Shown here: in pieces, positions 35,225 through 59,001 of the stretch | How the letters are laid out: each line of letters begins with the position of its first letter | How positions within the stretch are numbered: the stretch's first letter is position 1 | From: an uncultured Spirochaetota bacterium | GTDB taxonomy: Bacteria; Spirochaetota; Spirochaetia; Treponematales; Rectinemataceae | Assembly: GCA_903821875.1 (NCBI GenBank) | Contig: CAIJMU010000114.1 | Location: forward strand, 1-64,000 | DNA length: 64,000 nt | Direction of reading: 5' to 3' | Program-made: the position numbers and the translations under genes | Notes under the pieces: model-generated | Told to the model about the DNA's origin: nothing | Database searches by the model: none | Seen by the model: only the letters and a program-made list of their open reading frames with translations

Positions 35225-36280
35225 ATGGAACGAAAACGCATACTGACGGGCGACCGTCCCACCGGAAAGCTCCACCTCGGCCACTACGTCGGGTCCCTCG
35301 CAAACAGGGTCCGCCTCCAGGACGAGTACGAATGCTTTTTCATAATCGCCGACCTCCATACGCTGACCACCAAGCCCGAGAAGGAAAACATCGAGCAGCT
35401 CGCAGCCAACGTGCGCTCGGCGGCGCTCGACTACCTCGCCTGCGGCATCGATCCCGCAAAGTCGGTCATCTACCTCCAGTCGGCCGTTCCCGAGGTCATC
35501 GAGCTCGCCCTGTTCTTCCAGAACCTGATCACGGTGCCGAGGCTGTCCCGCGTGCCGAGCCTCAAGGAAATGGCCCAGGGAGCTGGCATCGAGGAGATGC
35601 CCTTCGGCCTCCTCGGCTACCCGGTGCTGCAGGCAGCCGACATCATGCTGCCGCGTGCACACCTGGTGCCCGTAGGCAAGGACAATGTCGCCCATGTCGA
35701 GGTTACCCGCGAGATAGCGCGCCGCTTCAACTTCCTCTACGGCGACACCTTTCCCGTGCCGGACGTCCTCGTCTCGGAGTACGGGTCCCTCGTCGGCACC
35801 GACGGCAACGCGAAGATGTCAAAAAGCCTTAACAATGCCATCTTCCTTTCCGATGACGAGAAGACGGTGCGAAAGCGCGTCATGTCCATGTACACCGATC
35901 CCAACCGCATCTCGGCCGACGTGCCGGGGACGGTCGAGGGCAATCCCGTCTTCCAGTACCACGAAGCGTTCAACACAGACAAGGCCGAGATCGAGGATCT
36001 CAAGGCCCGCTACAGGGCAGGGAAGGTAGGCGATGTCGAGGTGAAGGAAAAGCTCGTGCGTGCGCTCAATGCCTTCCTCGACCCGATCCGCGAGCGGCGC
36101 GCAAGGTACGAGGCTACAAGCGGGCTGGCAGACGAAGTCGTCCACGATGGCACGATGCGGATGCGCGAGGAAGCCCGGGAGACGCTCAACGCAGCCAAGA
36201 AGGCCATGGGCATGGCCTCGGTCTGGAACGGGATCAAGCGCAAGGCGGAGGACGCAAAAAAGAAACGCAGCGGCAACTGA
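35225..36280 (+). CDS. trpS: Tryptophanyl-tRNA synthetase
   Basis: Product of 351 residues, standard length. It charges tRNA-Trp. The HIGH-type motif is GKLHLGHYVG and the KMSKS loop is GNAKMSKS. Trp-binding and AMP-binding segments are intact (GYPVLQAADIML, VPVGKDN). ATG at 35225 gives MERKRILTGDRPTG; the ATG at 35216 lies one base after the -10 element and would not be transcribed from that promoter. No Shine-Dalgarno is visible. It converges with the PilZ receptor gene. Confidence 0.94.
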   Translation: MERKRILTGDRPTGKLHLGHYVGSLANRVRLQDEYECFFIIADLHTLTTKPEKENIEQLAANVRSAALDYLACGIDPAKSVIYLQSAVPEVIELALFFQNLITVPRLSRVPSLKEMAQGAGIEEMPFGLLGYPVLQAADIMLPRAHLVPVGKDNVAHVEVTREIARRFNFLYGDTFPVPDVLVSEYGSLVGTDGNAKMSKSLNNAIFLSDDEKTVRKRVMSMYTDPNRISADVPGTVEGNPVFQYHEAFNTDKAEIEDLKARYRAGKVGDVEVKEKLVRALNAFLDPIRERRARYEATSGLADEVVHDGTMRMREEARETLNAAKKAMGMASVWNGIKRKAEDAKKKRSGN

Positions 36281-36312: not shown

Positions 36313-38115
36313 TCACAATTCCTCGAGTTCCAGCGCTTCCTCGGCATCGCCTGTCATTTCCTTCCGCGAAGGGGGCTTTGCCAGCTCCGGCTTGGCCATG
36401 CCTTCAATGGAAAGCGTCTGCAGCAATTCTTCAACCGCTGACTCTCCCTCACGACCGAGGTCGATGAACCGGCAGCCAATTCGGTTGCCATCGCCATCGC
36501 TTTCGATCCGGCGGACTTCAAGGGAAAGCTCGACGGAGCGTTCACCCTCCGAGGTCAGGGGAAGGGCGACGCGGATGCGATGCCGGCTGTTGGCTGCCAT
36601 CGGAACCTCGGCGAGGATGAGCATGCCGGATCGCGACAGGTCGCCGATATAGCCCAGGAAGGAGCCATCCGGGGCGTAGATCTCGAGGTTGTAAAGGAGT
36701 AATTGACGGCTTTCCTTGCGGGCGAAGCGGGCTGCCTCCGCCCTGGCGAGGATGCGGTAGCGCTTGAGGACCTTGTTGCGCTCAATGCCTCCGATCTTGA
36801 GGTAGCCCGCCAGCTGGGCGAGCACCTTCGAGGAACGGCGGGCGTCCTTGGCACCTGCCTCGGCGCCGCTCGCGGAATCGGCGATGGTCTGATAATCGGT
36901 GGCACCCTCGCCGAAGACCCGCCCAAAGCGCTCGATGCGTGCCGAGGCCTCCGTGGCGGTCGCAGCCAGCCCGGAGGCAGCCTCGATCTGGTCGGAAAAA
37001 GCCTCGGCGAAGGCCCCGAGGATGTCGTCGACCGCAGCTACGCGATGCACGATGGCAGCGAAGCGGGCCTGGCTGTCGGCGACAGCGGCACCGAGCTCGC
37101 GGGCGGAAAGGCTCGACTCCGAGGAGAGCCTTGCTGAGGTCTCTATGCCCTTTGCTATCGATCCCAGTACCTGTGAGATATCAGCGAGGGAGGCCCGCGA
37201 GGAGGCAGCGAGCTTGCGTATCTCCTGGGCGATCACGGCGAAACCCGCCCCCCGCGTACCTGCGTGTGCAGCCTCGATCGACGCGTTCGTGGCAAGGACG
37301 TGCGTGCGTTCGACGATGTCCTCGATGACACGCAGGGCCTCCCCAATGCGCTTGGCATCCACTGCCTGCTTCTCGGCGACGCGGTCAAGCTGCGCTATGC
37401 CTTTGGCGAGGGAGGCTGCCGAGACTCCCGTAGCCGCGAGCGAGGAGGAACCACCTGTCGCTGCCGTCGCCGCCTCCGAGGTCACGCGGGAGACCTCCGC
37501 GAGCTGGTCGCGCGCGCCAAGGGCGCGCCCCCTGAGCGACTCCGCCCCGGACGCGTAGCCTGCCACCCCCTGGATGAGGTCCTCGAGCTCCCTCGCGGTC
37601 GCCGCGAGCTTGGCGTGGTAACCCTCCGAGCGCTTCTTCAGCACTATGAGCATTTCGAGCTCGGCCTCGGACTGCCTGGCAAGGTTGCGGGAAGAAAAAA
37701 GTATGTCAGACGCAAAAAGATCGAACTTTATCGCCGAGCGCCGCAGCAGGGCGAAGTCGTCGTTGAGTGAAAGGAGGAACTCCCCGAAACCCGGCATCTC
37801 GGCAGCGAAGCCCGTGTCGTGGACGTTCGAGATCAGGGCCCCGAGGTCCGCCTCGCCCGCGCTGTCCTCGAGGATGGCGCGGTCGATTCCGGAAAAGCGG
37901 CGTGATCTTTGTCTGATGCCCACCAGGGTGAGCGCAGACAGCACGGCTGCCGCGAGACAGAAGAGAAGCGCGAGTGGCCCAAGCCATGCCAGGCCGCCCG
38001 GGCGAGGGCCCAGGGATAGCCAGACAGCAAGCAGGACAGCGCCTATCACTGATGCGGCTGGTGCGAGCACCGGGATCATGCCGGGCGCTCTTCTTTTTCC
38101 TGGGTTTCCGGACAT
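36313..38115 (-). CDS. Methyl-accepting chemotaxis-type protein with C-terminal PilZ domain
   Basis: Product of 600 residues. Residues 10-65 hold two membrane helices joined by a loop of about ten residues, so there is no periplasmic sensor domain. A long coiled-coil follows, with the conserved signalling tip ATNASIEAAHAGTRGAGFAV, then QEIRKLAASS. Near residues 470-580 is a PilZ domain with R-x-x-x-R (RKESR) and D-x-S-x-x-G (DLSRSG), the two c-di-GMP-binding motifs. It may report intracellular c-di-GMP to CheA. The upstream CheY-like and Hpt genes are on the same strand. The conserved methylation-site motifs are not obvious to me. Confidence 0.82.
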   Translation of the reverse strand: MSGNPGKRRAPGMIPVLAPAASVIGAVLLAVWLSLGPRPGGLAWLGPLALLFCLAAAVLSALTLVGIRQRSRRFSGIDRAILEDSAGEADLGALISNVHDTGFAAEMPGFGEFLLSLNDDFALLRRSAIKFDLFASDILFSSRNLARQSEAELEMLIVLKKRSEGYHAKLAATARELEDLIQGVAGYASGAESLRGRALGARDQLAEVSRVTSEAATAATGGSSSLAATGVSAASLAKGIAQLDRVAEKQAVDAKRIGEALRVIEDIVERTHVLATNASIEAAHAGTRGAGFAVIAQEIRKLAASSRASLADISQVLGSIAKGIETSARLSSESSLSARELGAAVADSQARFAAIVHRVAAVDDILGAFAEAFSDQIEAASGLAATATEASARIERFGRVFGEGATDYQTIADSASGAEAGAKDARRSSKVLAQLAGYLKIGGIERNKVLKRYRILARAEAARFARKESRQLLLYNLEIYAPDGSFLGYIGDLSRSGMLILAEVPMAANSRHRIRVALPLTSEGERSVELSLEVRRIESDGDGNRIGCRFIDLGREGESAVEELLQTLSIEGMAKPELAKPPSRKEMTGDAEEALELEEL

Positions 38116-38125
38116 GTGCCGAAAT

Positions 38126-38153
38126 ATTATGCCGGAATCCCCTGCAAAGGCAA
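38126..38153 (-). promoter_or_regulatory. Candidate promoter for the PilZ receptor gene (leaderless arrangement)
   Basis: On the minus strand, TTGCCT (38153-38148) and CATAAT (38131-38126) are 16 bases apart; the ATG follows ten bases after the -10 element, with no Shine-Dalgarno. Confidence 0.4.
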
Positions 38154-38174
38154 CATGGCGAGGAGGAACGGGGG

Positions 38175-38570
38175 CTACTCGGGCAGCCAGCGCTCGAGCG
38201 AGAGGCGGAGGTCTTCGGGACCGATGGGCTTGAGCAGGAAATCGTCCATGCCCGCTTTTAGGCAATTTTCTCGTTCTCCATCCGCCGAGCCACCGGTGAG
38301 CGCGATGATGGGTACGTGGGTGCCATCCGCTTTTTCAAGATCCCTGATTTCCAGTGCCGTCTCGAAGCCGTCCTTGATCGGCATCTGGAGGTCCATGTAG
38401 ATCAAGACGGGACGTTCAGACTTGAAAGCCTCCATGGCCTCCTCGCCATCGCGGGCAGTGGCGACGCGGCACCCGGCAGCGATCCGCTGGACCAGGGCCT
38501 TTGCCAAGGCAAGATTGATCGTGTTGTCCTCGACGACAAGGATGAGGACCCCGTCAGTGCGCTTATTCAC
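38175..38570 (-). CDS. CheY-like response regulator (single receiver domain)
   Basis: Product of 131 residues, receiver domain only. The acidic pocket is VVEDN with Glu14 and Asp15, the phosphoacceptor is Asp60 in YMDLQMPIKDG, Thr92 is in ALTGG and Lys114 in LLKPIG. The Met-Pro-x-x-D-G sequence and N after the acidic pair resemble receivers of hybrid kinases. Start is GTG at 38570 with AGGAG upstream. It lies between an Hpt gene and the PilZ receptor gene on one strand, so a small phosphorelay is likely. Confidence 0.88.
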   Translation of the reverse strand: MNKRTDGVLILVVEDNTINLALAKALVQRIAAGCRVATARDGEEAMEAFKSERPVLIYMDLQMPIKDGFETALEIRDLEKADGTHVPIIALTGGSADGERENCLKAGMDDFLLKPIGPEDLRLSLERWLPE

Positions 38571-38627
38571 GGATTGCTCCTATCTAGGGCCTTGCGCCGC
38601 CCAGTGTATGCGTTTCCAATGCAAGAG

Positions 38628-38999
38628 TCACTCCCGCATCGCCACAAGCAACTCGTTGAAACAGTCCTGGAGCTGGCGGGCAGCGGATTCGATCTTGGCG
38701 CTTTCCTGGGCCTTGCAGGCGAGCTCGAGGGCGCTGGCAGCAGCGCGGAAGCGCTCGCAGCTGAGGTTGGCCCCTGCACCCTTGAAGGTGTGGGCCAGTC
38801 GCTGGGCTCCCTTGAAATCGGCTGCCGTGACAGCCCTCATGACTGACTCGATCTGGGACGGCGTTTCGCTGAGGAAGGTAGCCAGGATTAGATGGGCCAG
38901 TTCTTCGTCACCCATCATGCGCTCGAGCATCTGGGGACGGTTCCAGACATCCAATGGATGGGGCGATTCCGCGGCGGCTTCCGTGGCCAAAGCGGGCAA
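38628..38999 (-). CDS. Hpt-domain phosphotransfer protein (start uncertain)
   Basis: Product of 123 residues if translated from TTG at 38999. The Hpt signature LAHTFKGAGANL carries the phospho-His70. The four-helix pattern continues to the end. No ATG is in frame: upstream, the frame is open to a TAG at 39102-39104 and offers only non-ATG codons, with a Ser/Thr/Pro-rich linker (residues such as SSATPSTTRPP). GGAGGAGGG at 39038-39046 is too far from the TTG. The gene may have an unusual start or be the tail of a lost hybrid kinase. It precedes the receiver gene by 57 bases. Confidence 0.7.
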   Translation of the reverse strand: MPALATEAAAESPHPLDVWNRPQMLERMMGDEELAHLILATFLSETPSQIESVMRAVTAADFKGAQRLAHTFKGAGANLSCERFRAAASALELACKAQESAKIESAARQLQDCFNELLVAMRE

Positions 39000-39127
39000 C
39001 GGAGGTCGGGTTGTCGACGGAGTGGCGGATGACGCTCCCTCCTCCGAACTGGTCGCCTGCCCTTGATGCTTCAGAATCAGCCCCCCCCTGGATTGCTGGA
39101 ACTACGGGATCTCCACATTCCGCGTGT

Positions 39128-39156
39128 ATATTGCTGCCCCGGAGAGAGGCTGTCAA
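39128..39156 (-). promoter_or_regulatory. Candidate promoter reading into the Hpt/receiver genes
   Basis: On the minus strand, consensus TTGACA (39156-39151) and CAATAT (39133-39128) are 17 bases apart. The transcript would start near 39121, upstream of the uncertain Hpt start. Confidence 0.45.
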
Positions 39157-39386: not shown

Positions 39387-39767
39387 ATGGAACTGAGCAA
39401 AAAGATCCCGACACCCGATGACAAAACTGCCGGGAAAGCTCCTGCCGAGGGAAGCGGCATCGAGGATTTCGCCTCCGAGGAGCGTTGCCTCAGGGTGGCC
39501 ACCACCCTTTCCCTCGTAGCCAACCCGCGCCGCCTCAAGGTCCTGTGCATGCTCGCGGAGCGTGACCGGAGCGTCGATGAACTGGTACAGGGCACGAGGG
39601 CGACCTTCCCGGCGATTTCCCAGCAACTCAAGCTCCTCACCCTCGCCGGCTTCCTCGAACGCCGCAGGGAAGGCCGCAACATCTTCTACCGGCTCAAGGA
39701 CGAAAAGGTCCTCTCGATCCTCCACCATCTGAAGTCCCTGTACCAGGACCTCCCGGCGGGGGCCTAG
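39387..39767 (+). CDS. ArsR-family winged-helix transcriptional regulator
   Basis: Product of 126 residues. After a 30-residue polar N-terminus comes the ArsR fold: LVANPRRLKVLCMLAERDRSVDELV, then the recognition helix FPAISQQLKLLTLAGFLERR and the wing EGRNIFYRL. There is no CxC metal motif in helix 3 (RLKVLCML has one Cys), so metal sensing is not evident; it may sense a metabolite or redox state. It stands 66 bases before the FAD/Fe-S oxidoreductase gene, which it probably regulates together with itself. It looks leaderless. Confidence 0.85.
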   Translation: MELSKKIPTPDDKTAGKAPAEGSGIEDFASEERCLRVATTLSLVANPRRLKVLCMLAERDRSVDELVQGTRATFPAISQQLKLLTLAGFLERRREGRNIFYRLKDEKVLSILHHLKSLYQDLPAGA

Positions 39768-39833: not shown

Positions 39834-42800
39834 ATGCTCGTGAACACCGCAGGCGCGGGTTTCCTCTCCAAGACCTTCGGCGCAAGGGTGAGCTTCGATC
39901 CGGTGGAACGGATGCTCTATTCGCACGATGTGGGGGACATCCCCTACCTCATCAAACCCCTTCTCGGAAAGACGACGCCCCAGGCGGTCGTCCAGCCGGA
40001 GAACGAGGGCGAGATCGTCTCGCTCGTGAAGTGGGCAGTGGAAACCACAACGGTCGTCATCCCGCGGGGCAAGGCGACATCGGGCTACGGTGGCGCGATC
40101 CCCGTCAAGGAAGGCGTCGTCATCGACTTCGTCCGGATGCACCAGATAATCGCAATTGACAAGAACGCGATGACCGTGCGCGTCCAGCCGGGCATCGGCT
40201 GGGAGCCCCTCGACAGGGAACTCGCTAAGGAAGGCCTGACGCTCAGGCTCTATCCGACAAGCTATCCGGCCTCCACCGTCGGCGGCTGGGTCGTGCAAGG
40301 CGGCGCAGGCATCGGAAGCTTCGAGGCGGGCTGGTTCCGGGACTCGATAGAATCCGTGAGGGCAGTGCTTGCCGATGGTTCCGTTCGCGACTTCACGGGA
40401 ACTGACATCGACCTGATCTACGAGACAGGCGGCATCACCGGATTGGTGACTGAGATCACCATCAAGGTGATGAAGAAAAGCGACCTCGTCATCGTGGCGG
40501 CCACCTCGCTCCAGGCCTCCTCGGTCCAGGGACTCTCCGAATCCGTCATCAAGGAAGACCTCCCGATCTGGTCGATGCTCTTCATCAACCCGAAGATGGC
40601 GGAACTCAAGAACAAGACCCCCCACCCCGAGCACGACATCCATGCCGGGCAGTATACGAAGATCCCCGAGGCCTTCGTCGTAACCATCGCCTACCGGGCC
40701 GAGGACGCAGGCAGGGTAGCAGCGAAGCTCGACGCCCTCTTCGCCCGCGCGCGTATGGAAAAGCAGAGCCAGGAAATCGCCGACCACGAGTGGGAAAGCC
40801 GCTTCAAGGTCATGCAGGTCAAACGCCTCGGCCCCTCCCTGGTGCCCGCCGAGGTTGTGGTGCCCCTGTCTACGCTGGGGAATTTCCTCGAGGACATGGA
40901 CCGCAGCATCCACCAGCCCGTCGTCAAGGAGGGCATGCTTGTCAAGAAAGGCCGCGACGGAAAACCAGAAGTCGTCATACTTGGTTTTATCCCCGCCGAT
41001 CAGCGCAAGTTCAGCTACCACTTTGTGTTCAGCCTCTCGCTCTCGATCATGAAGGTCGCCGAGCGTCACGGCGGACGGGCCTATGCCACCGGCATCTACT
41101 TCACCGGGAAGGCAAAATCGGTCTTCGGGGAAAAACGCCTGGCCGCCCTCCGCGAGTTCAAGGCACGGACCGATCCGAAGAACATCCTGAATCCGAAAAA
41201 GAACATCCAGGGCAACATCGTGTCCTCCATAGTCAGCCTGGTCTCCAATTTCGAGCCAATTACGAGGTTCTTCGGCAACCAGGTCCTCACCAATGTCGGC
41301 GAGCGCATCACCGGACCGAAAAAGGGCATCCCCGCCGACATCGCCTGGCACGCCTACGGCTGCAGCCAGTGCGGCTACTGCATCGACACCTGCGACCAGT
41401 TCTACGGGAGGCTCTGGGAAAGCCAGACTCCCCGCGGCAAGTGGTTCTGGCTCAGGCTCTTCATGGAAGGCCGGGTGAAGTGGGACCAGAAGCAGGTCGA
41501 CACCTTCATGGTCTGTACCACCTGCGAGCGCTGTTCTTTCCGCTGCCCCGAGGGCCTGCCCGTCGAGGCTTCCTGGATGAAGATGCGCGGCAAGCTCATC
41601 AACGACGAGAAGCGCATGACCTTCCCGCCCTTCGAGATGATGTCCGCTGCCCTCAACGCGGAAGGCAACATCTGGGCCGGCTACAGGAAGGACCGGGCAA
41701 CCTGGTTCCCGAAAAAGCACGAGGCAAAGCACGGCCCCGCAGCTGCTGGCGCACAGGCAAAAACGGCAGAGTACGTCTATTTTGCGGGTTGCACCGTCAG
41801 CTACGTCGAGAACGACATAGGCCTGGCGGCTGTCGAACTCCTCGACAAGGCCGGCATCGACTTCACCTACCTTGGCGACGACGAAAACTGCTGCGGCACA
41901 CCGATGCTGGCTGCCGGGAAATGGGACACCTTCAAGTCCACCATGGAGCACAACCTCAAGGCCATCAAGAAGACCGGAGCCAAGAAGGTCCTCACCTCCT
42001 GCCCCGCCTGCGACATGATGTGGCGGCATGCCTACCCCCAGTGGGCGAAGAAGCTCGGCCTCGATTACGACATCGAATGCTTTAACTACACCGAAGTTCT
42101 CGCCAAGGCCGCCAAGGAAGGGACCCTCGTGATCCCGCCCCATCCCGGAGAGAGGGAAACGGTCACCTTCCACGATTCCTGCCACCTCGGCCGCGTCTCG
42201 GGCATCTACGAGCCCCCGCGTGACCTCATCAAGGCCATTCCCAACGTCAACTTCGTCGAGATGGAATCCAACCGCGAAGATTCCAAGTGCTGCGGTTCGG
42301 TGCTCACCCTCATCAAGGAGCCCAAGGTTGCCGCCGTCATCGGCAAGGACCGCCTCGACGAGGCCATCGACATCGGGGCCTCCAAGGTCCTCGCGATCTG
42401 CCCCTGCTGCCAGTTCCAGCTCCGCTGCTCGGCCAACGCCTTGAACCTGCCCGTCGAAGTGGTGGACCTCGGGCACTACGTCGCCGAAAGCTTCGGCCTC
42501 CAGATGCCCGATCCCAACCCGGAGGTCCGCAAGAACTGGGCTGTCTTCGAGGCGATGATCGCCCTCATGACCCCCCAGGGCTTCGCCGACCTCATGGCCA
42601 CCATGTTCCCCGAACTCTTGAAGGCCATGCCCCTGGGCATGGGCGGAATGATGCAATTCTTCGGAAAGCGCATGCCCTTCATGCTCGGCGTGATGAAGCC
42701 GATGTTCCCGATCCTCTTCCCCATCCTCCTGCCCGGCATGATGCCGAAGGTAATGGACACAATGCTGTCGAGGGTCGGCGACCTCGTGCCGATGCCCGAT

Positions 42801-42929
42801 CACATGAGGGCCCAGATGCCCGAGCTCATGCCCAAGGTGATGGACAACCTGATGCCCCACATGATCGGCGACCTCGTGCCGCTGGTGACTCCTAAGATGA
42901 TCGAGTGGCTGAAGGGAAAGCCGGCCTGA
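39834..42929 (+). CDS. FAD-linked oxidase / 4Fe-4S / CCG-domain oxidoreductase with Met-rich tail
   Basis: Product of 1031 residues. Residues about 45-230 are an FAD-binding-4 domain (VIPRGKATSGYGG, STVGGWVVQGGAGIGSFEAG), as in glycolate and D-lactate oxidases. Two Fe-S motifs follow (CSQCGYCIDTC near 511, CTTCERCSFRC near 562). Two CCG domains come next (CCGTP near 686, CCGSV near 819). The last 120 residues are very Met- and Pro-rich, with two related units starting MMPKVMDTM and LMPKVMDNL, each ending GDLVP. It probably oxidises a 2-hydroxyacid and hands electrons to a quinone-linked partner. Substrate unknown; control by the upstream ArsR-type regulator is likely. Confidence 0.85.
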   Translation: MLVNTAGAGFLSKTFGARVSFDPVERMLYSHDVGDIPYLIKPLLGKTTPQAVVQPENEGEIVSLVKWAVETTTVVIPRGKATSGYGGAIPVKEGVVIDFVRMHQIIAIDKNAMTVRVQPGIGWEPLDRELAKEGLTLRLYPTSYPASTVGGWVVQGGAGIGSFEAGWFRDSIESVRAVLADGSVRDFTGTDIDLIYETGGITGLVTEITIKVMKKSDLVIVAATSLQASSVQGLSESVIKEDLPIWSMLFINPKMAELKNKTPHPEHDIHAGQYTKIPEAFVVTIAYRAEDAGRVAAKLDALFARARMEKQSQEIADHEWESRFKVMQVKRLGPSLVPAEVVVPLSTLGNFLEDMDRSIHQPVVKEGMLVKKGRDGKPEVVILGFIPADQRKFSYHFVFSLSLSIMKVAERHGGRAYATGIYFTGKAKSVFGEKRLAALREFKARTDPKNILNPKKNIQGNIVSSIVSLVSNFEPITRFFGNQVLTNVGERITGPKKGIPADIAWHAYGCSQCGYCIDTCDQFYGRLWESQTPRGKWFWLRLFMEGRVKWDQKQVDTFMVCTTCERCSFRCPEGLPVEASWMKMRGKLINDEKRMTFPPFEMMSAALNAEGNIWAGYRKDRATWFPKKHEAKHGPAAAGAQAKTAEYVYFAGCTVSYVENDIGLAAVELLDKAGIDFTYLGDDENCCGTPMLAAGKWDTFKSTMEHNLKAIKKTGAKKVLTSCPACDMMWRHAYPQWAKKLGLDYDIECFNYTEVLAKAAKEGTLVIPPHPGERETVTFHDSCHLGRVSGIYEPPRDLIKAIPNVNFVEMESNREDSKCCGSVLTLIKEPKVAAVIGKDRLDEAIDIGASKVLAICPCCQFQLRCSANALNLPVEVVDLGHYVAESFGLQMPDPNPEVRKNWAVFEAMIALMTPQGFADLMATMFPELLKAMPLGMGGMMQFFGKRMPFMLGVMKPMFPILFPILLPGMMPKVMDTMLSRVGDLVPMPDHMRAQMPELMPKVMDNLMPHMIGDLVPLVTPKMIEWLKGKPA

Positions 42930-43201: not shown

Positions 43202-43296
43202 CTTAACGCCCTCTTTATTCCATGGCATGGCTCTCGGGTATATCATTATCCATAGATGCTACGCCGATGGCAGGAAGCAGGAATCAGGGGGCAAAC

Positions 43297-46011
43297 ATGT
43301 CCATAGGCACGGTTGATCAGGGTCCCGTTTCCGACATGGCGCGAGACGCGCCGGATGGCGAAAAGGCGGACTTGGCCCGACCCAAGGCGATACTTAAGAT
43401 CTACCTCGGCATGGCCCCAGGAGTCGGCAAGTCCTTGGCCATGCTGGCGGCAGCACGGCTACTGGGAGAGAGCGGGCTGGATGTCGTAATTGGATGGGTT
43501 GATGCACATGGGCAGGGCGACACTGAGTCACAGGCTGAAGGGATCGAGTCCATTGCACCGCGAATCGTGGCTTATGGCGGAAGCCATGTCCGGGAAATGG
43601 ATCTTGATGCCATCATCGCAAGAAGGCCGGCGATCGTCCTCATCGACGACCTGGCCCACCCGAACGCAGCCGGACTTCGCCATGCCAGGCGCTACCAGGA
43701 CATCCTCGAGCTGCTGGAAGCCGGAATTTCAGTTCACACCACAGTGAATATCCAGCACCTGGAGAGCCTAGCGGATTCCATTGAACTGCTGACGCTTGTT
43801 CCGATCCGTGACCGCGTTCCCGACTCGATCTTCGACAGGGCCGACGAGCTTCAGCTCATCGATATGAGCCCCACGGATCTCCTGGTGCGCCTCCGGCAAG
43901 GAAAGGTACACACAGGAGCCGTGTCTGGCGATTTCTTCAAGCCCGACAACCTTCTCGTGCTTCGGGAAATCACGCTGAGGTATGCGGCCCAGCTCGCAAG
44001 CCATAGGGTCCTCGAATTCATGAGGGAAACGCCCGGAATGCCTGGAACTCCGGAGTCCGGGCGAATCCTTGTCGCCGTAGGCCCGAGCCCGCATGGCGAA
44101 AATCTTCTCCGCTGGACGCGGCGTCTGGCTTACGCGCTGCGAGCCGACTGGGAATGCCTGAATATCGAAACAGGACGCGGAATGTCCGAGACCGAACTCG
44201 CCAGACTCTCCCGAAACCTCGAACTGGCCCGCAGCCTCGGAGCGAAGGTGACGAGCGTTACAAACCTGGATGTCGCTTCGGGAATCCTCGGCCATGCGCA
44301 TGACAGCAACGCCTCGTTCCTGGTAATAGGAAAGAGCGGACTCTCGCGAAGGCGCCCCTTCGTTGGATCTCGTACGATCTCCGAGGCCATCATGCGCGAT
44401 TCCGGACCTATACCGGTGTTCGCTGTCCAGGATCGTGGCATCCGCGAAAAGGCGGGCAAGAGTCTGGCGAGGAAGGTCGAGGCCTCCCCTCCTGCACAAT
44501 TTTTAGTATCAATTGCGGCAATCGCTGCTGTAACCCTCCTTAACCTCCTGATAGCCGGCTATGTCGGCTATTGGGGAGCAGCCATTCCCTATCTAGCGGC
44601 CATCAGCATCCTGGCGCTCTTCCTCGGGCGCGGTCCGGTATTTCTCGCCGCTTTCGCATCAGCAGCGCTGTGGGACTTCGTTTTCATATCCCCGCGATTC
44701 GATTTTTTCATTTCTGATCCAGCCGACCTTCTCATGCTGGGACTCTATTTTCTCGTGGCCCTTACCTCGGGCTGGTTTACCCAGAAACTCAAGTCGAGCG
44801 AGCGGGTCCTGCGCTCCAGGGAGCGACGCCTCGAAGCCCTGTCAAGCCTGGCGATGGAACTCGCCGGTGTCGGCGATCGAAGCGCGATCCTGGAAGTCGG
44901 CTCACTTGCCCTCAAGCACTTTTTCGACGCCGAGATCGCAATCTTCATGAGGGAGGCTTCCGGGAAGCTCGAAACCGAAACCGAGGGCGGATGGCAGGCT
45001 ATCGACGGCCAGTCCCTCTCGGCGGCAGGCTGCTGCCTTGAAACCAGGCGGGTAGCCGGGAGGGATACCGATACCCTTCCCCAGGTCGAGTGGCACTTTG
45101 CTCCCCTTCAGTCGGTACGGGGAGCCCTCGGCGTGGTCGGTCTCAGGATAGCTTCTGATCGCCGCTGGACACACGAGTTGGATGCCTTCCTGGCCACCAT
45201 GCTCCGCACGATCGCACTCGCCGTCGAGCGCGAGCTCGCCATCGTAGATTCTACTGCAGCAGCCCTGTCACGCGAGTCTGCACGCTTGGGCAAGCTACTC
45301 CTCGATTCTGTCTCGCATGAACTCAGGACGCCTCTTACCATAATCCAGGGGAGCGCGACTGCGCTTGCCGACGACACGACCGCTTCCAATCCCAGGTCGA
45401 GAAGCCTCCTGATCGGGGAAATCTCCATGGGAGCTTCCCGCCTGGACGCCATCGTCGGAAACCTCCTGTCGATCAATCGCCTGGAATCCGGGTCACTTTC
45501 ACTCCACCTTTCAGAGGTCGATCAGGAAGAGCTGGTCTCGGCAGCCGTCTCACAGATGAAGGGCGAGGCAGGCGAGGCCTTGATAGAAGTAGTTGGAACT
45601 ATCCTTCCCGCGGTCCTCGTCTGCGACGCGGCGCTCATCGTGCAGGTTCTCGTCAACCTCCTAAGGAACGCCTTCCGCTACGGCGCCCCGGGCGGACGCA
45701 TCTCCATCCGCTTCGGAAAGGAGCCCGAAGGCTTCCGGACCTTCGACGTCGAGGACCAGGGAAGGGGAGTTCCTGAAAAGGACCTCGACCGGATCTTCGG
45801 CAAATTCCATCGGGGTCCAGATGCCGCTCCGGGAGGCTGTGGCCTGGGACTTGCAATATGCAAGGGCATCGTCGAGGCCCATGGCGGAAGCATCGCCGCA
45901 CGCAACCTTGAAGGGGGTGGGTTCTTGGTTGGTTTCAGGCTGCCGGCCTTCCCGGAACCGCATCCCATCCTTCATGAAACTAATCCTGTCGATAGGGAGG
46001 CGCTACCATGA
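43297..46011 (+). CDS. kdpD: KdpD-type sensor histidine kinase
   Basis: Product of 904 residues, KdpD length. Domains in order: the N-terminal KdpD domain with Walker-like GMAPGVGKSLAML and HTTVNIQHLESL; a USP domain (about 250-370); four membrane helices (about 400-490); a GAF-like region; the HisKA box SHELRTPLT with His674; and an ATPase domain (NLLRNAFRYG, then GLGLAICKGIVEAHGG). It senses potassium limitation or cell ionic state. ATG at 43297 follows AGGGGG; the 43222 start lacks one. It overlaps kdpE by four bases (ATGA). Confidence 0.93.
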   Translation: MSIGTVDQGPVSDMARDAPDGEKADLARPKAILKIYLGMAPGVGKSLAMLAAARLLGESGLDVVIGWVDAHGQGDTESQAEGIESIAPRIVAYGGSHVREMDLDAIIARRPAIVLIDDLAHPNAAGLRHARRYQDILELLEAGISVHTTVNIQHLESLADSIELLTLVPIRDRVPDSIFDRADELQLIDMSPTDLLVRLRQGKVHTGAVSGDFFKPDNLLVLREITLRYAAQLASHRVLEFMRETPGMPGTPESGRILVAVGPSPHGENLLRWTRRLAYALRADWECLNIETGRGMSETELARLSRNLELARSLGAKVTSVTNLDVASGILGHAHDSNASFLVIGKSGLSRRRPFVGSRTISEAIMRDSGPIPVFAVQDRGIREKAGKSLARKVEASPPAQFLVSIAAIAAVTLLNLLIAGYVGYWGAAIPYLAAISILALFLGRGPVFLAAFASAALWDFVFISPRFDFFISDPADLLMLGLYFLVALTSGWFTQKLKSSERVLRSRERRLEALSSLAMELAGVGDRSAILEVGSLALKHFFDAEIAIFMREASGKLETETEGGWQAIDGQSLSAAGCCLETRRVAGRDTDTLPQVEWHFAPLQSVRGALGVVGLRIASDRRWTHELDAFLATMLRTIALAVERELAIVDSTAAALSRESARLGKLLLDSVSHELRTPLTIIQGSATALADDTTASNPRSRSLLIGEISMGASRLDAIVGNLLSINRLESGSLSLHLSEVDQEELVSAAVSQMKGEAGEALIEVVGTILPAVLVCDAALIVQVLVNLLRNAFRYGAPGGRISIRFGKEPEGFRTFDVEDQGRGVPEKDLDRIFGKFHRGPDAAPGGCGLGLAICKGIVEAHGGSIAARNLEGGGFLVGFRLPAFPEPHPILHETNPVDREALP

Positions 46012-46679
46012 AGCGGGTACTGGTCATCGACGACGAGCCGCAGATACGGAGGCTTCTCGAGATCACGCTGGAGGCCAAGGGCTTCCAGGTCTTCACGGCG
46101 GGATCGGCCACCGAGGGCCTCCAGGCAGTGCAGACGGTCAGGCCGGACATCGTGCTCCTCGATCTCGGACTTCCCGACAGGGACGGTCAATCGCTGCTGG
46201 CCGAACTCAGGACCTGGTCTACCATCCCGGTCATCGTCGTTTCCGTCCGCGACCTGGAAAGCGATATCGTAACCCTCCTCGATTCAGGCGCGGACGATTA
46301 CGTCTCAAAACCTTTCAATTCTGAGGAGCTTTTTGCCCGCATGAACGCAGCGCTCCGGAGGACCCGCCCCGACCTGCGGGAAGCGAAATACGAGGTCGCG
46401 GAGCTCGTCGTGGACTTCGGCAACCGTCGGGTGATCAAGAGCGGCGAGGAAGTCAAGGTGACCCCGACCGAGTACGCGATCGTAGCCGAACTCGCCAAGG
46501 CCGGGGGGCGGATCGTTACCCATGCCCAGCTGCTCCGGGAACTCTGGGGACCGCTGGCGGAGGAGGAACGGGGCAGCCTGCGCGTCCATGTCTCCTCGCT
46601 GCGGAAGAAGATCGAGGACAATCCATCCTGCCCGACCCACCTCATCACGGAGCCAGGGATCGGATACCGCCTGTGCTGA
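46008..46679 (+). CDS. kdpE: KdpE-type response regulator
   Basis: Product of 223 residues: receiver plus OmpR/PhoB winged helix. The phosphoacceptor is Asp52 in IVLLDLGLPDRDG, with the acidic pair in VIDDEP and the Lys in YVSKPF. The DNA-binding domain runs from EVAELVVDFGNRRV to the recognition helix and SLRKKIEDNP. It overlaps kdpD at its start and kup at its end (GTGCTGA), so the three proteins are made from one transcript. Its usual target, kdpFABC, is absent here. Confidence 0.94.
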   Translation: MKRVLVIDDEPQIRRLLEITLEAKGFQVFTAGSATEGLQAVQTVRPDIVLLDLGLPDRDGQSLLAELRTWSTIPVIVVSVRDLESDIVTLLDSGADDYVSKPFNSEELFARMNAALRRTRPDLREAKYEVAELVVDFGNRRVIKSGEEVKVTPTEYAIVAELAKAGGRIVTHAQLLRELWGPLAEEERGSLRVHVSSLRKKIEDNPSCPTHLITEPGIGYRLC

Positions 46680-48559
46680 GCACACGAAGCAAGCGTGGAG
46701 GCGATACCGGCCTCGCCATTGCAGCACTTGGTGTGGTATTCGGGGACATCGGCACATCTCCGCTCTACGCCCTCAGGGAGTGCTTTGCCCCCGGGCGCGG
46801 AATGGCAAGCAGCGAATCAAATGTAATTGGTATTGTTTCCCTTCTCATCTGGACACTCTCGCTCATCGTTGGCGTCAAGTATCTCGGCATCGTCCTCCGT
46901 GCGGACAACCGGGGAGAGGGCGGCATCCTCGCCCTCGTGAGCCTGGTCGGCAACAGTTTGCCGAAGGACTCGGCAAAGCGGGCAGGCGTGGTGGCAACCC
47001 TCGGCATCGTCGGGGCTGCACTCTTGTACAGCGATGGGATAATCACCCCGGCGATATCGGTACTCTCAGCCGTCGAGGGACTCAGGGATGCCGCACCATC
47101 GCTCGGCCGCTTCGTCATTCCCATCTCCCTGATCGTTCTCGCCTTCCTTTTTCCATTCCAGTCACGGGGAACGGCCAGGGTCGGGAAGATCTTCGGACCT
47201 CTCATAATACTGTGGTTCCTGATTCTTGCGACCCTCGGCCTGGCAGCGATCATAGGCGAACCCCGGATCCTGGCCGCCCTCGATCCCCGCGCCGCCATCC
47301 GCTTTGTAATCCAGGAAAAGTGGGCCACCTTCAAGGTCCTGGGATCGATCTTCCTCGCCATGACCGGAGCGGAGGTACTGTACGCCGATCTTGGGCATTT
47401 TGGAAAAAAACCGATACGGCGGGCCTGGTTCGCCCTCGTCTTCCCGGCACTTCTCCTTGCATACGTCGGCCAGGGAGCCTGGCTTCTCGGGCACCCGGAC
47501 CAGGTCTCCAATCTTTTCTACCGTCTGGCACCCGAGTGGTTCAGGCTTCCCCTGGTCCTCATCGCAACGGTAGCCACGATCATCGCCTCACAGGCTGTCA
47601 TCTCGGGTGCATTCTCGCTCGCCAGACAAAGCGTCCAGCTTGGCTACTGGCCGCGTCTCCAGATCCGGCACACCTCCGACATGACAGTCGGCCAGGTTTA
47701 TGTACCATTTATCAATGCCTTCCTGTTTATTGGCACAATTGCCCTTGTCCTGGGGTTCAAGGAATCCGGAAAGCTGGCCAATGCCTATGGCATCGCGGTG
47801 TCTGCGACCATGTTCATGACGACCTGTCTCATGCTCTATGTCGCGACGGTCATCTGGAAAAAAGGCCTGTGGTACATCCTTCCCCTGGAGCTGCTTTTCC
47901 TCCTCGTCGAAGGAGCATTCTTCCTGGCCAACATCCGCAAGGTCGGATCGGGAGGCTGGGTCGTGGTGGCCATCGCAGCGATCATATTTACCTTGATAAA
48001 GACCTGGATGGACGGGAAGCGGCTCTTTGGCGAAAAGATGCGCAACTACAGGCTCAGCCCCGAAGTCTTCGCAAGCAGCATCGGCTTGAATCCCCCCCAC
48101 CGTGTTCCCGGAACGGCCATCTTCATGACCGCCGATCCGACAGGCGTACCGAAGGCCCTGCTCCACAACCTCAAGAACAACAAGGTCCTCCACGCAAGGA
48201 CCATCCTGCTCTCCGTCCACAACCTCGAGGTACCCAGGGTCGAGGTGGACGAACGCATCGAAGTCCAGGAGCTCGACGCGGGCATCTGGAAAATTAGGAT
48301 GTCCTTCGGCTTCAGCGAGATACCCGACGTGCCCCGTCAGCTCCGCAACGTCAATATTCCCGGTTTCGCCATCGATGAAATGGATACGACCTGGTTCGTG
48401 GGCCACGAGTACATCGTGTTTTCACGAAAGTCCGGCAAGATGTCCTGGGTCAGGAAAAAGATCTTCCGCTACATGTTCGATCATGCCTTGAATGCTACCG
48501 ACTTTTTTTCCCTTCCAACCAACCGGATCGTCGAACTTGGGGCAAAGACCGAACTATAG
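46673..48559 (+). CDS. kup: Kup-type potassium transporter
   Basis: Product of 628 residues. Kup carriers import K+ with protons. The family start GLAIAALGVVFGDIGTSPLYAL is exact, and about twelve membrane helices fill the first 420 residues. The remaining cytoplasmic domain (HRVPGTAIFMTADP, then FFSLPTNRIVELG) is normal. Start is GTG at 46673, inside the kdpE stop region, so translation is coupled. Placement directly under KdpDE suggests Kup is the regulated transporter here. Confidence 0.94.
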   Translation: MLSTRSKRGGDTGLAIAALGVVFGDIGTSPLYALRECFAPGRGMASSESNVIGIVSLLIWTLSLIVGVKYLGIVLRADNRGEGGILALVSLVGNSLPKDSAKRAGVVATLGIVGAALLYSDGIITPAISVLSAVEGLRDAAPSLGRFVIPISLIVLAFLFPFQSRGTARVGKIFGPLIILWFLILATLGLAAIIGEPRILAALDPRAAIRFVIQEKWATFKVLGSIFLAMTGAEVLYADLGHFGKKPIRRAWFALVFPALLLAYVGQGAWLLGHPDQVSNLFYRLAPEWFRLPLVLIATVATIIASQAVISGAFSLARQSVQLGYWPRLQIRHTSDMTVGQVYVPFINAFLFIGTIALVLGFKESGKLANAYGIAVSATMFMTTCLMLYVATVIWKKGLWYILPLELLFLLVEGAFFLANIRKVGSGGWVVVAIAAIIFTLIKTWMDGKRLFGEKMRNYRLSPEVFASSIGLNPPHRVPGTAIFMTADPTGVPKALLHNLKNNKVLHARTILLSVHNLEVPRVEVDERIEVQELDAGIWKIRMSFGFSEIPDVPRQLRNVNIPGFAIDEMDTTWFVGHEYIVFSRKSGKMSWVRKKIFRYMFDHALNATDFFSLPTNRIVELGAKTEL

Positions 48560-54991: not shown

Positions 54992-57862
54992 TCAACGCCT
55001 CCGCGATAGCTGGTCCGCCAGGTAGACGATGGACTGGTAGGGTATCCCGCCCGACAGGCTCAAACCTATCTCGCAGGTCCGGGAGTTGGAGTAGCCCGAA
55101 CGGCAGTCGCCCGGAAGCTGTTCCTTCAGTGTTCCCAATGCAGACGAACTCAGCTCGGGATGGAAGAAGACCCGGTCACCCGCCACGCCGCAGCAGCCTA
55201 TTCCCGTGGGGACAATGACCTTTTCCGCGAGTGCCTCCGCCACTTCGAGGAAGGCCGCCTCGAGGCCCATCTTCCTCGAACTGCAGGTGACATGAATTGC
55301 GATGGTCTCGGCCGACCTCTTGATTTCCAGCCTTCCGAGGAGGAAGTTCCGGATGAACTCCACGGGTTCGTAGAGGGCGAGGCGAGGGTCCGCCTTTTCT
55401 TTCAGGGTGTGAAGGCAGGGGCTCGTGTCGAAAAGGACCGGATAGTGGCCATCCTCGCTGGCAAGAAGCAGGGCCGCCTCCAGCTCCAGACGCTTTTTTT
55501 CTGCTACCTCGAAGAAGCCCTTGCTGCCGAAGGCCATGCCGCAGCAGAACGCGTCCATGCCCTCGGGAAAGACAACCTCGTAGCCTGCCTTGTCGAGAAG
55601 GGACATCATGGCCTCGTGGAGGCTGCGCTGGTCGGGATCGCCCGGGGCTGGGCCCATGGAGCGGACGATGCAGCTGGGAAAGTAGACGACTTTCAGCAGG
55701 CTTCCCTGGGCCTGTGCCGGACCGGCAGGCCCTGCCTTGATCGACGCAGACCTTCTGGGCAGTGCCCTGTTCCACAGGGGAAGATGATTTCCAGAAAGCC
55801 TCCTGGCTGCCCCGCCGAGGAAGGCGAGGGCAGAAGGACCTATTACAGAACGAACTCCGTCTGCGGCAGAAAGCCCCGCCCGCATGCCGACTCCCACGGC
55901 GGCGAAATTCTTCCCCAAGGCCGCTGCCGTAGCCAGCGCGAGGGGACCCCGCATGGAATGCCTTAGTTCCTTCGTGTGCTTTCCCGTATCGATGTCGACA
56001 GGGCAGGCTCCGGCGCAGAGCCCGTCGGTCGCACAGGTCTTCTCCCCGAAATAGGCATAGTCCCGGGTAATGCGCTCCATGCGGCCGACTTCGGTCCCGG
56101 ATTCACAGAGGCGGGCTACTTCCCGCGTGACCGCTATCCTCTGCCTCGGGCTCAGGGTGAGATCCTTCGAAGGACACATTGCCTCGCAGAAGCCGCACTC
56201 GATGCAGCGGTCCACCAGCTCGTGGGCCCGGGGAAGGGGCTTCAAGTCCCGGAGGTGGGCCTTCGGGTCGGCTGAGATGACGACACCGGGATTGAGGAGG
56301 CCCTTTGGGTCGAAGGCCGCCTTGACCCTCAGCATGAGGGCGTAGATCCGCGAACCCCATTCGAGCTCGACGAAGGGAGCCATGTTGCGTCCCGTGCCGT
56401 GCTCCCCCTTCAGGGAACCGTCGTAGGTATGAACAACCATGTCGCATACTGCGTCCATGAAGGCGCTGTAGCGGGCTACCTCGGCAGCGTCACCGAAATC
56501 CTGGGTGAAGACAAAGTGGAGATTGCCATCGAGGGCATGGCCGAAGATGATGCCATCGCGATAGCCATGCCCTGTCATCAGGCTGCGCAGCTCGGTCGTC
56601 GCCTCGGCCAGGCCTTCGATCGGAAAGACAACATCCTCGATCACGACTGTCGTGCCGATCTTCCTCATCGCACCGACTGCAGGGAAAAGCCCCTTCCTGA
56701 TCTTCCACAGGGCCTCGTAGTCGATCTTCCTGTCCGTGAAGGAAGCGGGCAGAACCATCGGAAGCCCGGCTACCATGGCCGCAAGCCCATCCACGTTCAT
56801 GGCCAGCCCTTCGGGGCTGGAAGAGCGCGTCTCGACCAGGAGGGCGGTAGCCTGTTCATCAAGGGCCTTCAGATAGGGGGGCATGCCCTCTTTGTCCTCG
56901 ACCGAGCGGAGGGAAGAGCGATCCATCAGCTCGACCGCGGAAACAGGGCCCTTCTTGAGGATCATCGTAGCCTGGCAGGCTGTCGCAATATCGGGAAAGA
57001 CCATGAGGGCAGAGGCCTTGCACGGATGCTCCACGACGCTGCGATAGGTGATCTCGGCGATAAAGCCCAGTGTGCCTTCCGAGCCGATCATGAGGTGGGA
57101 GAGGATGTCGACGGGATCGTCATAGTCGATAAAGGAGTTCACGCCGTAGCCCGTTGTGTTCTTGATGCTGAACTTACGGGCGATCCTTCCTTCCAGTTCA
57201 GGATCGCGCAGGATCTCGTCGCGGATCGACGCAAGTTCCGCTGCCAGTGCACTATGGGTAGCCAGGAAGGCCGCTCGTGAGGCCGGATCGCCGGTATCGA
57301 GGATGCTTCCATCCACCAGGACAGCCTTCATGGCCTCGACAGTGCGGTAACTGTTCTCCGAAGTCCCGCAGCACATGCCGCTCGCGTTGTTGGCAGCGAT
57401 TCCACCGATCATGCAGCTGTCGATGGAAGCTGGATCAGGCCCGATCCTGCGTCCCATCGGCGAAAGGAGCCTGTTGGCCTGGGCTCCGAGAATACCCGGT
57501 TCGAGGGCGATGAGCCGTCCGGAATCGAGGATGCGGTGCTTCCGGAAGCCGCCGGCCTGGACGACGAGGACCGAATCGGAGACCGCCTGCCCGGAGAGGC
57601 TCGTGCCCGCCGCGCGGAAGGTAAGGGCTACACCGAACTGATCCGAAGCCTTGAGCAGGGACTGGACTTCCTCGATACCAATTACCTTCACTACGATCTT
57701 CGGCGTGAGCCGGTAGCAGCTCGCGTCGGTGCCCCAGGCGAAGGTCCGGAGCGGATCGGTGAAGATCCTCCCCTCCGGAATGCTCCGGGCTACCGCCCTG
57801 TACCAGGCCCGGTAGTTTTCTGGCAGCAAGGCCAGGTCGGAGTGCCTGTCCGCGGCGCTCAT
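54992..57862 (-). CDS. FAD-linked oxidase / 4Fe-4S fusion (D-2-hydroxyacid dehydrogenase, YdiJ-like)
   Basis: Product of 956 residues. Residues about 60-210: FAD-binding-4 domain (TFRAAGTSLSGQAVSDSVLV, GGIAANNASGMCCG). About 290-540: the FAD-oxidase C domain (GHALDGNLHFVF, GEHGTGRNMAPF). Then two Fe-S motifs (CIECGFCEAMCPS, CATDGLCAGACPVD) and a CCG-type domain (FCCGMAFGSKGF, CCGVAGDR). This is the architecture of D-2-hydroxyglutarate and D-lactate dehydrogenases such as YdiJ. Its ATG overlaps the stop of the serine-hydrolase gene (ATGA), so it is the last gene of the opp operon. Substrate unknown. Confidence 0.85.
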   Translation of the reverse strand: MSAADRHSDLALLPENYRAWYRAVARSIPEGRIFTDPLRTFAWGTDASCYRLTPKIVVKVIGIEEVQSLLKASDQFGVALTFRAAGTSLSGQAVSDSVLVVQAGGFRKHRILDSGRLIALEPGILGAQANRLLSPMGRRIGPDPASIDSCMIGGIAANNASGMCCGTSENSYRTVEAMKAVLVDGSILDTGDPASRAAFLATHSALAAELASIRDEILRDPELEGRIARKFSIKNTTGYGVNSFIDYDDPVDILSHLMIGSEGTLGFIAEITYRSVVEHPCKASALMVFPDIATACQATMILKKGPVSAVELMDRSSLRSVEDKEGMPPYLKALDEQATALLVETRSSSPEGLAMNVDGLAAMVAGLPMVLPASFTDRKIDYEALWKIRKGLFPAVGAMRKIGTTVVIEDVVFPIEGLAEATTELRSLMTGHGYRDGIIFGHALDGNLHFVFTQDFGDAAEVARYSAFMDAVCDMVVHTYDGSLKGEHGTGRNMAPFVELEWGSRIYALMLRVKAAFDPKGLLNPGVVISADPKAHLRDLKPLPRAHELVDRCIECGFCEAMCPSKDLTLSPRQRIAVTREVARLCESGTEVGRMERITRDYAYFGEKTCATDGLCAGACPVDIDTGKHTKELRHSMRGPLALATAAALGKNFAAVGVGMRAGLSAADGVRSVIGPSALAFLGGAARRLSGNHLPLWNRALPRRSASIKAGPAGPAQAQGSLLKVVYFPSCIVRSMGPAPGDPDQRSLHEAMMSLLDKAGYEVVFPEGMDAFCCGMAFGSKGFFEVAEKKRLELEAALLLASEDGHYPVLFDTSPCLHTLKEKADPRLALYEPVEFIRNFLLGRLEIKRSAETIAIHVTCSSRKMGLEAAFLEVAEALAEKVIVPTGIGCCGVAGDRVFFHPELSSSALGTLKEQLPGDCRSGYSNSRTCEIGLSLSGGIPYQSIVYLADQLSRRR

Positions 57863-59001
57863 GGTCTTTGGAAATTCGCCAGTGCGCATTCGGAGATCCT
57901 CTTCCGGAAGGGATTGATGTCACAGGGTTCGGCGACATGGAGGCGGTTTGCAAGGAGCGCGATGTTCAGGCCCGAGGCGGGGTTGATATGGAGGTAACAA
58001 CCAGTAAAGCCTGTATGCCCAGCGCCGCCCCCCGGATAGTTATCTCCGGTCTGGAAGCCTAGCCCACGGCCCCCGCCGCCGTCACGCAGGGCTTCCGCAG
58101 CGAGGGTTGCAAGGATCCAGCGCTTCCCGCTCCCCGGCTGCTCAGCCCCGTGGGCCATGATGACGCCGCCGTCCAGATAGAACTGCCCGAGCCTGCAGAG
58201 GTCGCGGGCATCCGAGAACACTCCCGCGTGTCCCGCTACCCCGTCGAAGTAATAGTGACAATTGCCATCATTAGGCTCGCCCAGGATCGGGAGCCTCCTG
58301 TCGCGCCAGAGGTCGAATGTGAGGCCAAGAGCGGCGACCATGCCCTCCTCGATGCGATTGCCTGCTTCCGTGGCGACCGCCTGGCCCAGGGGCCTCCTGA
58401 ATGAAGTCCTGGTCAGGCCCAGGGGCTCGAAGACAAGTTCCGAAACCGCCGCTGCCAGGCCCTTCCCCGTGAGTACCTCGACAATCCGTCCGAGAAGCAT
58501 GAAATTGAGATCCGAATAGACGACCTCGGCCTGACGCGGATGGAGTTCCATGACATCCGCCAACACCGTCTCGAAGGACTGGCCCCGTCGCGTATAAAAC
58601 GGATACCAATAGTGAAGGCCCGAGGAATGGGAAAGGAGGGACTCAAGGTCAATTGCTCCGAGGGAGACCCTCAGGCGCCTACGGGTTTCCGCGTCCATGC
58701 CGGCTCCAGGGGCCCTGGTTTCCAGGAGTTCAAAGACCCTGGAAAGGAGGGAGCAGGCCCCGGTCGACACAAGGCGCAGGATGGCTGCAGTAATGAAGAG
58801 CTTGGTGACGGAGGCGAGGTCAAAGACCGAATCGACCTTCATGACTATTCGATTTTTGCCATCCGCGAGGGCATGGCCAACAGCCCCCTCGAAGAGGAGA
58901 CGCCCCCCGCGCTCGATCCGCAGCACCGCCCCCGCGTAGCGCTTCTCAGAGAGGCCTTCATCAAGCAAAGCCGTCAGATCACCCGAAGCATGGGTACTCA
59001 C
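57859..59001 (-). CDS. Serine hydrolase, beta-lactamase class C / PBP4* type
   Basis: Product of 380 residues. The active-site S-x-x-K is SVTK in DLASVTKLFIT. The second motif Y-x-N is probably YSDLNFMLLG (Tyr present; Asn displaced), and the third is HTGFTG in place of K-T-G. No signal peptide is visible, so it may act in the cytoplasm, for example on imported peptides, rather than as a resistance enzyme. Start GTG at 59001 overlaps the GNAT stop (GTGA), and its stop overlaps the next gene. The operon context suggests D-amino-acid-containing peptides. Confidence 0.82.
   Translation of the reverse strand: MSTHASGDLTALLDEGLSEKRYAGAVLRIERGGRLLFEGAVGHALADGKNRIVMKVDSVFDLASVTKLFITAAILRLVSTGACSLLSRVFELLETRAPGAGMDAETRRRLRVSLGAIDLESLLSHSSGLHYWYPFYTRRGQSFETVLADVMELHPRQAEVVYSDLNFMLLGRIVEVLTGKGLAAAVSELVFEPLGLTRTSFRRPLGQAVATEAGNRIEEGMVAALGLTFDLWRDRRLPILGEPNDGNCHYYFDGVAGHAGVFSDARDLCRLGQFYLDGGVIMAHGAEQPGSGKRWILATLAAEALRDGGGGRGLGFQTGDNYPGGGAGHTGFTGCYLHINPASGLNIALLANRLHVAEPCDINPFRKRISECALANFQRP

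Follow-up and report, generated by a model that had tools for sequence, protein, structure and literature searches.

MCP-PilZ receptors of spirochaetes: a candidate c-di-GMP input to the chemotaxis array

Chemoreceptors bearing a PilZ domain are already known. The closest known system to the receptor described here is Cbp1 of Azorhizobium caulinodans, a soluble MCP with a PilZ domain that binds c-di-GMP with a KD of about 15 uM through its RxxxR motif and whose loss impairs chemotaxis (PMC6454048). In Azospirillum brasilense, Aer and Tlp1 are membrane chemoreceptors with a terminal PilZ domain; Aer is composed of PAS, TM, HAMP, MCP and PilZ parts and its signalling requires PilZ (PMC6406031). 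Spirochaetes also possess a route by which an intracellular small molecule reaches the chemotaxis array: in Treponema denticola, SAM is fed into the array by CheWS (CheW-CheRlike) (PMC10653840). Since this metabolite enters through a CheW fusion, internal array inputs are not new in spirochaetes. A spirochaete MCP-PilZ receptor was not found in the part of the literature that was covered.

The window is a stretch of 64,000 nucleotides from an uncultured Spirochaetota bacterium of the family Rectinemataceae (contig CAIJMU010000114.1). It carries on its minus strand, in the order Hpt, receiver, receptor, a run of three genes separated by gaps of 57 and 59 bases:

36313..38115, minus strand: MCP-PilZ receptor of 600 aa (ORF, Pfam, 12 full-length homologues)
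38126..38153, minus strand: promoter-like site TTGCCT-16-CATAAT directly before the receptor gene (consensus match 9/12)
38175..38570, minus strand: stand-alone receiver of hybrid-kinase (BarA) type, not a conserved partner (Pfam E 2.2e-24)
38628..38999, minus strand: stand-alone Hpt protein, not a conserved partner (Pfam E 4.4e-13; start codon uncertain, TTG)

The receptor starts with an ATG at 38115, M13 at 38079 being an alternative, and the longest mechanical frame runs from a TTG at 38265. The convergent trpS gene ends at 36280 and an ArsR gene at 39387 is divergent from the run. The Hpt frame (38999) shows neither an ATG nor a clear ribosome-binding site; it may use a non-standard start, or the gene may be the remnant of a hybrid kinase. 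Elsewhere in the window, a 1031-aa fusion of an FAD-linked oxidase, a 4Fe-4S and two CCG domains (39834-42929, plus strand) ends in a long Met/Pro-rich C-terminal tail that matches no Pfam entry, another fusion of FAD oxidase and CCG is found at 54992-57889 (minus strand), and a Kup-type potassium transporter adjoins a KdpD-type sensor kinase (43222-48559, plus strand).

The receptor itself is made up of the following parts:

38014..38079, minus strand: TM helix 1, residues 13-34 (structure model, hydropathy)
37915..37983, minus strand: TM helix 2, residues 45-67 (structure model, hydropathy)
36763..37788, minus strand: antiparallel coiled-coil hairpin, residues 110-451 (structure model, Pfam, 2ch7 match)
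37681..37737, minus strand: entry motif RSAxKFDLFSSDIxFSSRxL at the coiled-coil start, residues 127-145 (alignment)
36955-37413, minus strand: MCPsignal match within the hairpin (Pfam)
37210..37320, minus strand: hairpin tip with the diverged sequence THVLATNASIEAAHAG, residues 266-302
36757..36822, minus strand: conserved linker LAQLAGYLKxGGxERNRVLRRY before PilZ, residues 432-453 (alignment)
36421..36720, minus strand: PilZ domain, residues 466-565 (Pfam, fold match to Alg44/YcgR)
36706..36720, minus strand: RxxxR motif, R466-R470, invariant in the family
36625..36642, minus strand: DxSxxG motif, D492-G497 (D492/S494/G497), invariant in the family
36316..36345, minus strand: acidic C-terminal tail AEEALELEEL, common to the family

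The Pfam match to MCPsignal covers residues 235-387 (E 6e-23, 82 bits against a curated cut-off of 34.6) and that to PilZ residues 466-565 (E 2.4e-12), and Pfam matched no HAMP or ligand-binding domain in the receptor. The two TM helices are joined by a periplasmic turn of 10 residues according to the structure model and hydropathy, which bears out the earlier note on the helix pair and on the lack of an outside sensor. The model places one long helix at 110-284, the return helix at 286-451 and a beta-barrel from 478. Its mean pLDDT is 75.8 and its pTM 0.35, because of which the relative placement of the domains is unreliable. Within the domains, the hairpin gives a nearly ungapped match of 260 residues to the Thermotoga maritima receptor 2ch7, and the PilZ barrel (pLDDT 83-95 by blocks) was matched by Foldseek to 4rt1 and 5y6g with probability 1.00; the PilZ model matches c-di-GMP-bound Alg44 and YcgR structures. 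A sequence search of the PDB with the PilZ part gave no match.

Like Cbp1, this protein has an MCP signalling domain followed by a C-terminal PilZ domain with RxxxR and D/NxSxxG motifs, and no sensor domain. Cbp1, as set apart by its description, lacks TM helices, is much shorter and has its RxxxR motif from residue 320, whereas the spirochaete protein has a membrane anchor, a long hairpin, the fixed linker, the acidic tail and a diverged tip. Aer, unlike the spirochaete receptor, has a PAS sensor and a HAMP domain. In CheWS the sensor is fused to CheW and not to a receptor, and the ligand is SAM; the genome of the window likewise encodes a CheW-CheR fusion. With the long (44H-type) MCPs, of which 2ch7 is an example, the receptor shares the hairpin and differs by the tip sequence and the PilZ tail. 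From the PilZ-bearing chemoreceptors already known, the present family is set apart by a membrane anchor with neither sensor nor HAMP, by the length of its hairpin, by its fixed linker and by its altered tip.

A search of 394 genomes from the order with the C-terminal 211 residues found relatives in 17, the window's own included, the weakest of the 17 (G222; E 1.7e-4, one stop) being a doubtful member. A profile run over 393 genomes of the phylum gave strong matches confined to this order and to one genome of another order in the same class (G660); weaker matches further out in the phylum belonged for the most part to short PilZ proteins that stand alone. In G660 the copy (L128 8943-10259, minus strand) is broken: an in-frame stop precedes the linker and the frame lacks the hairpin tip. 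Such a broken copy in another order suggests that the family was once wider. A tblastn search of plasmids with the C-terminal 281 residues returned no match, and when genome_contigs was scanned with the entire receptor, a single Bradyrhizobium locus came up, which matched the general MCP core. Judged by sequence, the MCP-PilZ receptors are a patchy but real conserved family of spirochaete proteins.

The 12 full-length members share 28-42% identity with the window protein, and their N-termini are variable ahead of the entry motif. From there on the spacing is kept: 151 residues separate the KFD motif from the tip Glu in 12 proteins (one of them counts 150, only since its first motif residue differs), 157 the tip Glu from the linker Tyr, 28 this Tyr from the first PilZ Arg and 26 the latter from the Asp of DxSxxG, again in 12 proteins. 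That this ruler is kept in proteins that differ at most residues suggests that the hairpin is rigid and that its position relative to PilZ matters. The family has three signatures of its own, i.e. the coiled-coil entry motif, the linker before PilZ and the acidic tail. The strict methylation-site consensus is absent in 11 of 12 members, the window protein among them, and present in about half of the genome's other receptors; in such a consensus scan an unmatched protein may still hold sites. Because the consensus is unmatched, the receptor is classified as MCP-like by domain and not as a demonstrably methylated protein.

The window's genome, a 4.68-Mb draft, gives 3 matches to the spirochaete flagellar protein FlaA (0/14 control genomes) and 23 MCP-domain matches. 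CheA and CheW, whose lack in the genome had been named in the earlier note as fatal to its proposal, are present with 3 CheA dimerisation-domain and 15 CheW-domain matches. One cluster holds CheA, the CheW-CheR fusion and CheX, and CheA-type proteins fused to receivers are found at further loci. Contigs C24, C26, C76 and C108 of this genome (G000; loci L130, L129, L133 and L132) encode at least four CheA-type kinases, three with a receiver fusion and one with three CheW-domain stretches. Several chemosensory systems are thus encoded in one genome, and its receptors fall into distinct tip classes.

The tip of the main receptor class of this genome is TNLLAMNAAIEAAHAG and those of the other classes are TNLLALNATIEAARAG, INLLALNANVEAARAG or TRIIAFNAALEASTAG; the same main classes, together with one short class, occur in four further genomes. 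The tip of the PilZ receptor is THVLATNASIEAAHAG in the window, THILATNASIEAARAG in close relatives and mostly TRLLAVNASIEAARAG in distant ones. The signalling tip, described at the outset as complete, is so in that the hairpin has its full length; its sequence, however, with the family tip NASIEAA, departs from that of every other receptor in the genome. Relative to the genome's main classes, the changes fall at the equivalents of Tsr N376, L380 and A383 in E. coli numbering by our own counting, and we take N376 and L380 to be trimer-contact positions. In the part of the literature that was covered, no paper listed the full set of Tsr trimer-contact residues; one names only E385, R388 and F396. 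With the equivalents of N376, L380 and A383 changed, it is uncertain whether the tip binds the usual trimers or CheA/CheW. Invariant in the tip are N277, A278, I280, E281, A282, A283, A285, G286, G289, G291, F292, E298 and R300. Most members have an Arg where the height-matched receptors have a His, which is also the residue of the window protein. A tree was built from 71 signalling cores; those of the PilZ receptors lie outside 55 regular receptors, a placement to be read with a long-branch warning. Support is high for the subgroup of seven that includes the window protein (100/97) and weak for the PilZ group as a whole (71/54).

Between the last residue of the final TM helix and the tip Glu, the window receptor counts 214 residues and the family 206-217, with one weakly predicted member at 229. 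The count is about 201-222 in the AMNAAIEAAHAG-type receptors of the genome, 195 in the NATIEAARAG class and 164-174 in the short class of the related genomes (the heights at L012, L020, L090 and L093 being taken from listed TM positions). The TM-to-tip length matches that of the long, flagellar-type receptors of the genome, so a receptor devoid of HAMP reaches as deep, as array membership would require. This height match is a consistency test for array membership, not proof of it.

The receptor probably belongs to the flagellar chemoreceptor array as an accessory member that is gated by c-di-GMP and poor in adaptation. An alternative that we consider rather unlikely is that the hairpin is uncoupled from CheA and serves as a dimeric structural rod that keeps a c-di-GMP-binding PilZ at the membrane. 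The protein could then act, for instance, as a spacer disrupting receptor trimers in a c-di-GMP-dependent way, or as the scaffold of some other membrane machine. That every member has a tip core altered at positions of the trimer-contact type would fit such a rod, as would the place of the signalling cores in the tree (with the group support of only 71/54), the missing methylation consensus and the mostly isolated gene. Against the rod, many tip residues are still invariant, the height matches that of the long receptors, and cheY and cheX adjoin the gene in the genome of one relative (G157). CheA is moreover present in 17/17 tested genomes carrying the family, a weak point against the rod, chemotaxis being so common here.

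The gene neighbourhood bears on a further model. The earlier note had rightly placed a CheY-like receiver and an Hpt protein on the same strand and had joined them with the receptor in one side phosphorelay connecting c-di-GMP and chemotaxis. The short gaps and the acceptor residues present in both proteins (HTFKG in Hpt, MDLQMP in the receiver) speak for this model. However, among the homologue loci, 10 extend 3 kb or more upstream of the receptor gene, and none of these has an Hpt or a comparable stand-alone receiver there, neighbour genes having also been checked via all frames of at least 60 aa; at one of them a multi-domain response regulator is encoded divergently, about 2 kb from the receptor gene. 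An operon of receptor, Hpt and receiver was rejected as a conserved unit on this count. Most family copies stand alone, and the only chemotaxis neighbours in the family are those of G157, in which the receptor gene is directly followed on the same strand by genes for CheY (E 4e-29) and CheX (E 3e-25). The window receiver scores best against the BarA hybrid-kinase receiver model and much more weakly against the CheY model. The Hpt protein scores best against LetS, TorS and LuxU types, and within the order its closest matches are for the most part Hpt domains that form part of long open frames, as large as hybrid kinases. With such matches the two genes resemble a common phosphorelay component that lies upstream here by chance. 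The promoter-like site between receiver and receptor, one of 2 observed against 0.5 expected in the 3.5 kb scanned, is a weak hint that the receptor may be transcribed apart from the receiver gene, and an MCP has no phosphoryl group to give. Since the two proteins are of hybrid-kinase type and accompany no other member of the family, the side phosphorelay finds no support here and we regard it as improbable.

The earlier proposal of c-di-GMP as the input fared better. Both motifs reported in the PilZ domain, R466/R470 and D492/S494/G497, are invariant in 12-14 homologues, the fold matches Alg44 and YcgR, and the genome has 14 GGDEF matches; of its 6 PilZ matches only that of the window receptor lies in an MCP frame. 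Going by motifs and fold model, c-di-GMP is the likely input. Some PilZ domains do not bind c-di-GMP, and the receptor PilZ could in principle be a protein-binding module instead, which the invariance of both RxxxR and DxSxxG across the family renders very improbable.

In the favoured reading, an accessory array member gated by c-di-GMP, the two TM helices would anchor the receptor and sense nothing outside, and the long hairpin would bring the tip level with the CheA/CheW plate of the long receptors. PilZ, held by the fixed linker to the end of the C-terminal helix, would lie near the membrane end of the hairpin. Binding of c-di-GMP at RxxxR/DxSxxG would change the packing of the C-terminal helix, and the diverged tip would then engage neighbour receptors and CheA differently, so that CheY phosphorylation and reversal frequency would shift with the c-di-GMP level of the cell. 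In this sequence of events we infer c-di-GMP binding, array membership, and the effect on CheA and its sign. More tentatively, and with the balance slightly against it, the family may form a separate spirochaete class of HAMP-less, methylation-site-poor, membrane-anchored receptors with a family-specific tip, inserted in the array and height-matched to the long receptors, in which c-di-GMP would tune CheA without external ligand and reversal would be set through the array and not by a motor brake.

The family thus offers a plausible direct route in spirochaetes from c-di-GMP to the chemotaxis array. Its fixed geometry and changed tip would provide a clear test of whether a receptor can function in an array without the standard trimer-contact residues, and of whether the cytoplasmic C-terminal end can be the site from which a receptor is driven.
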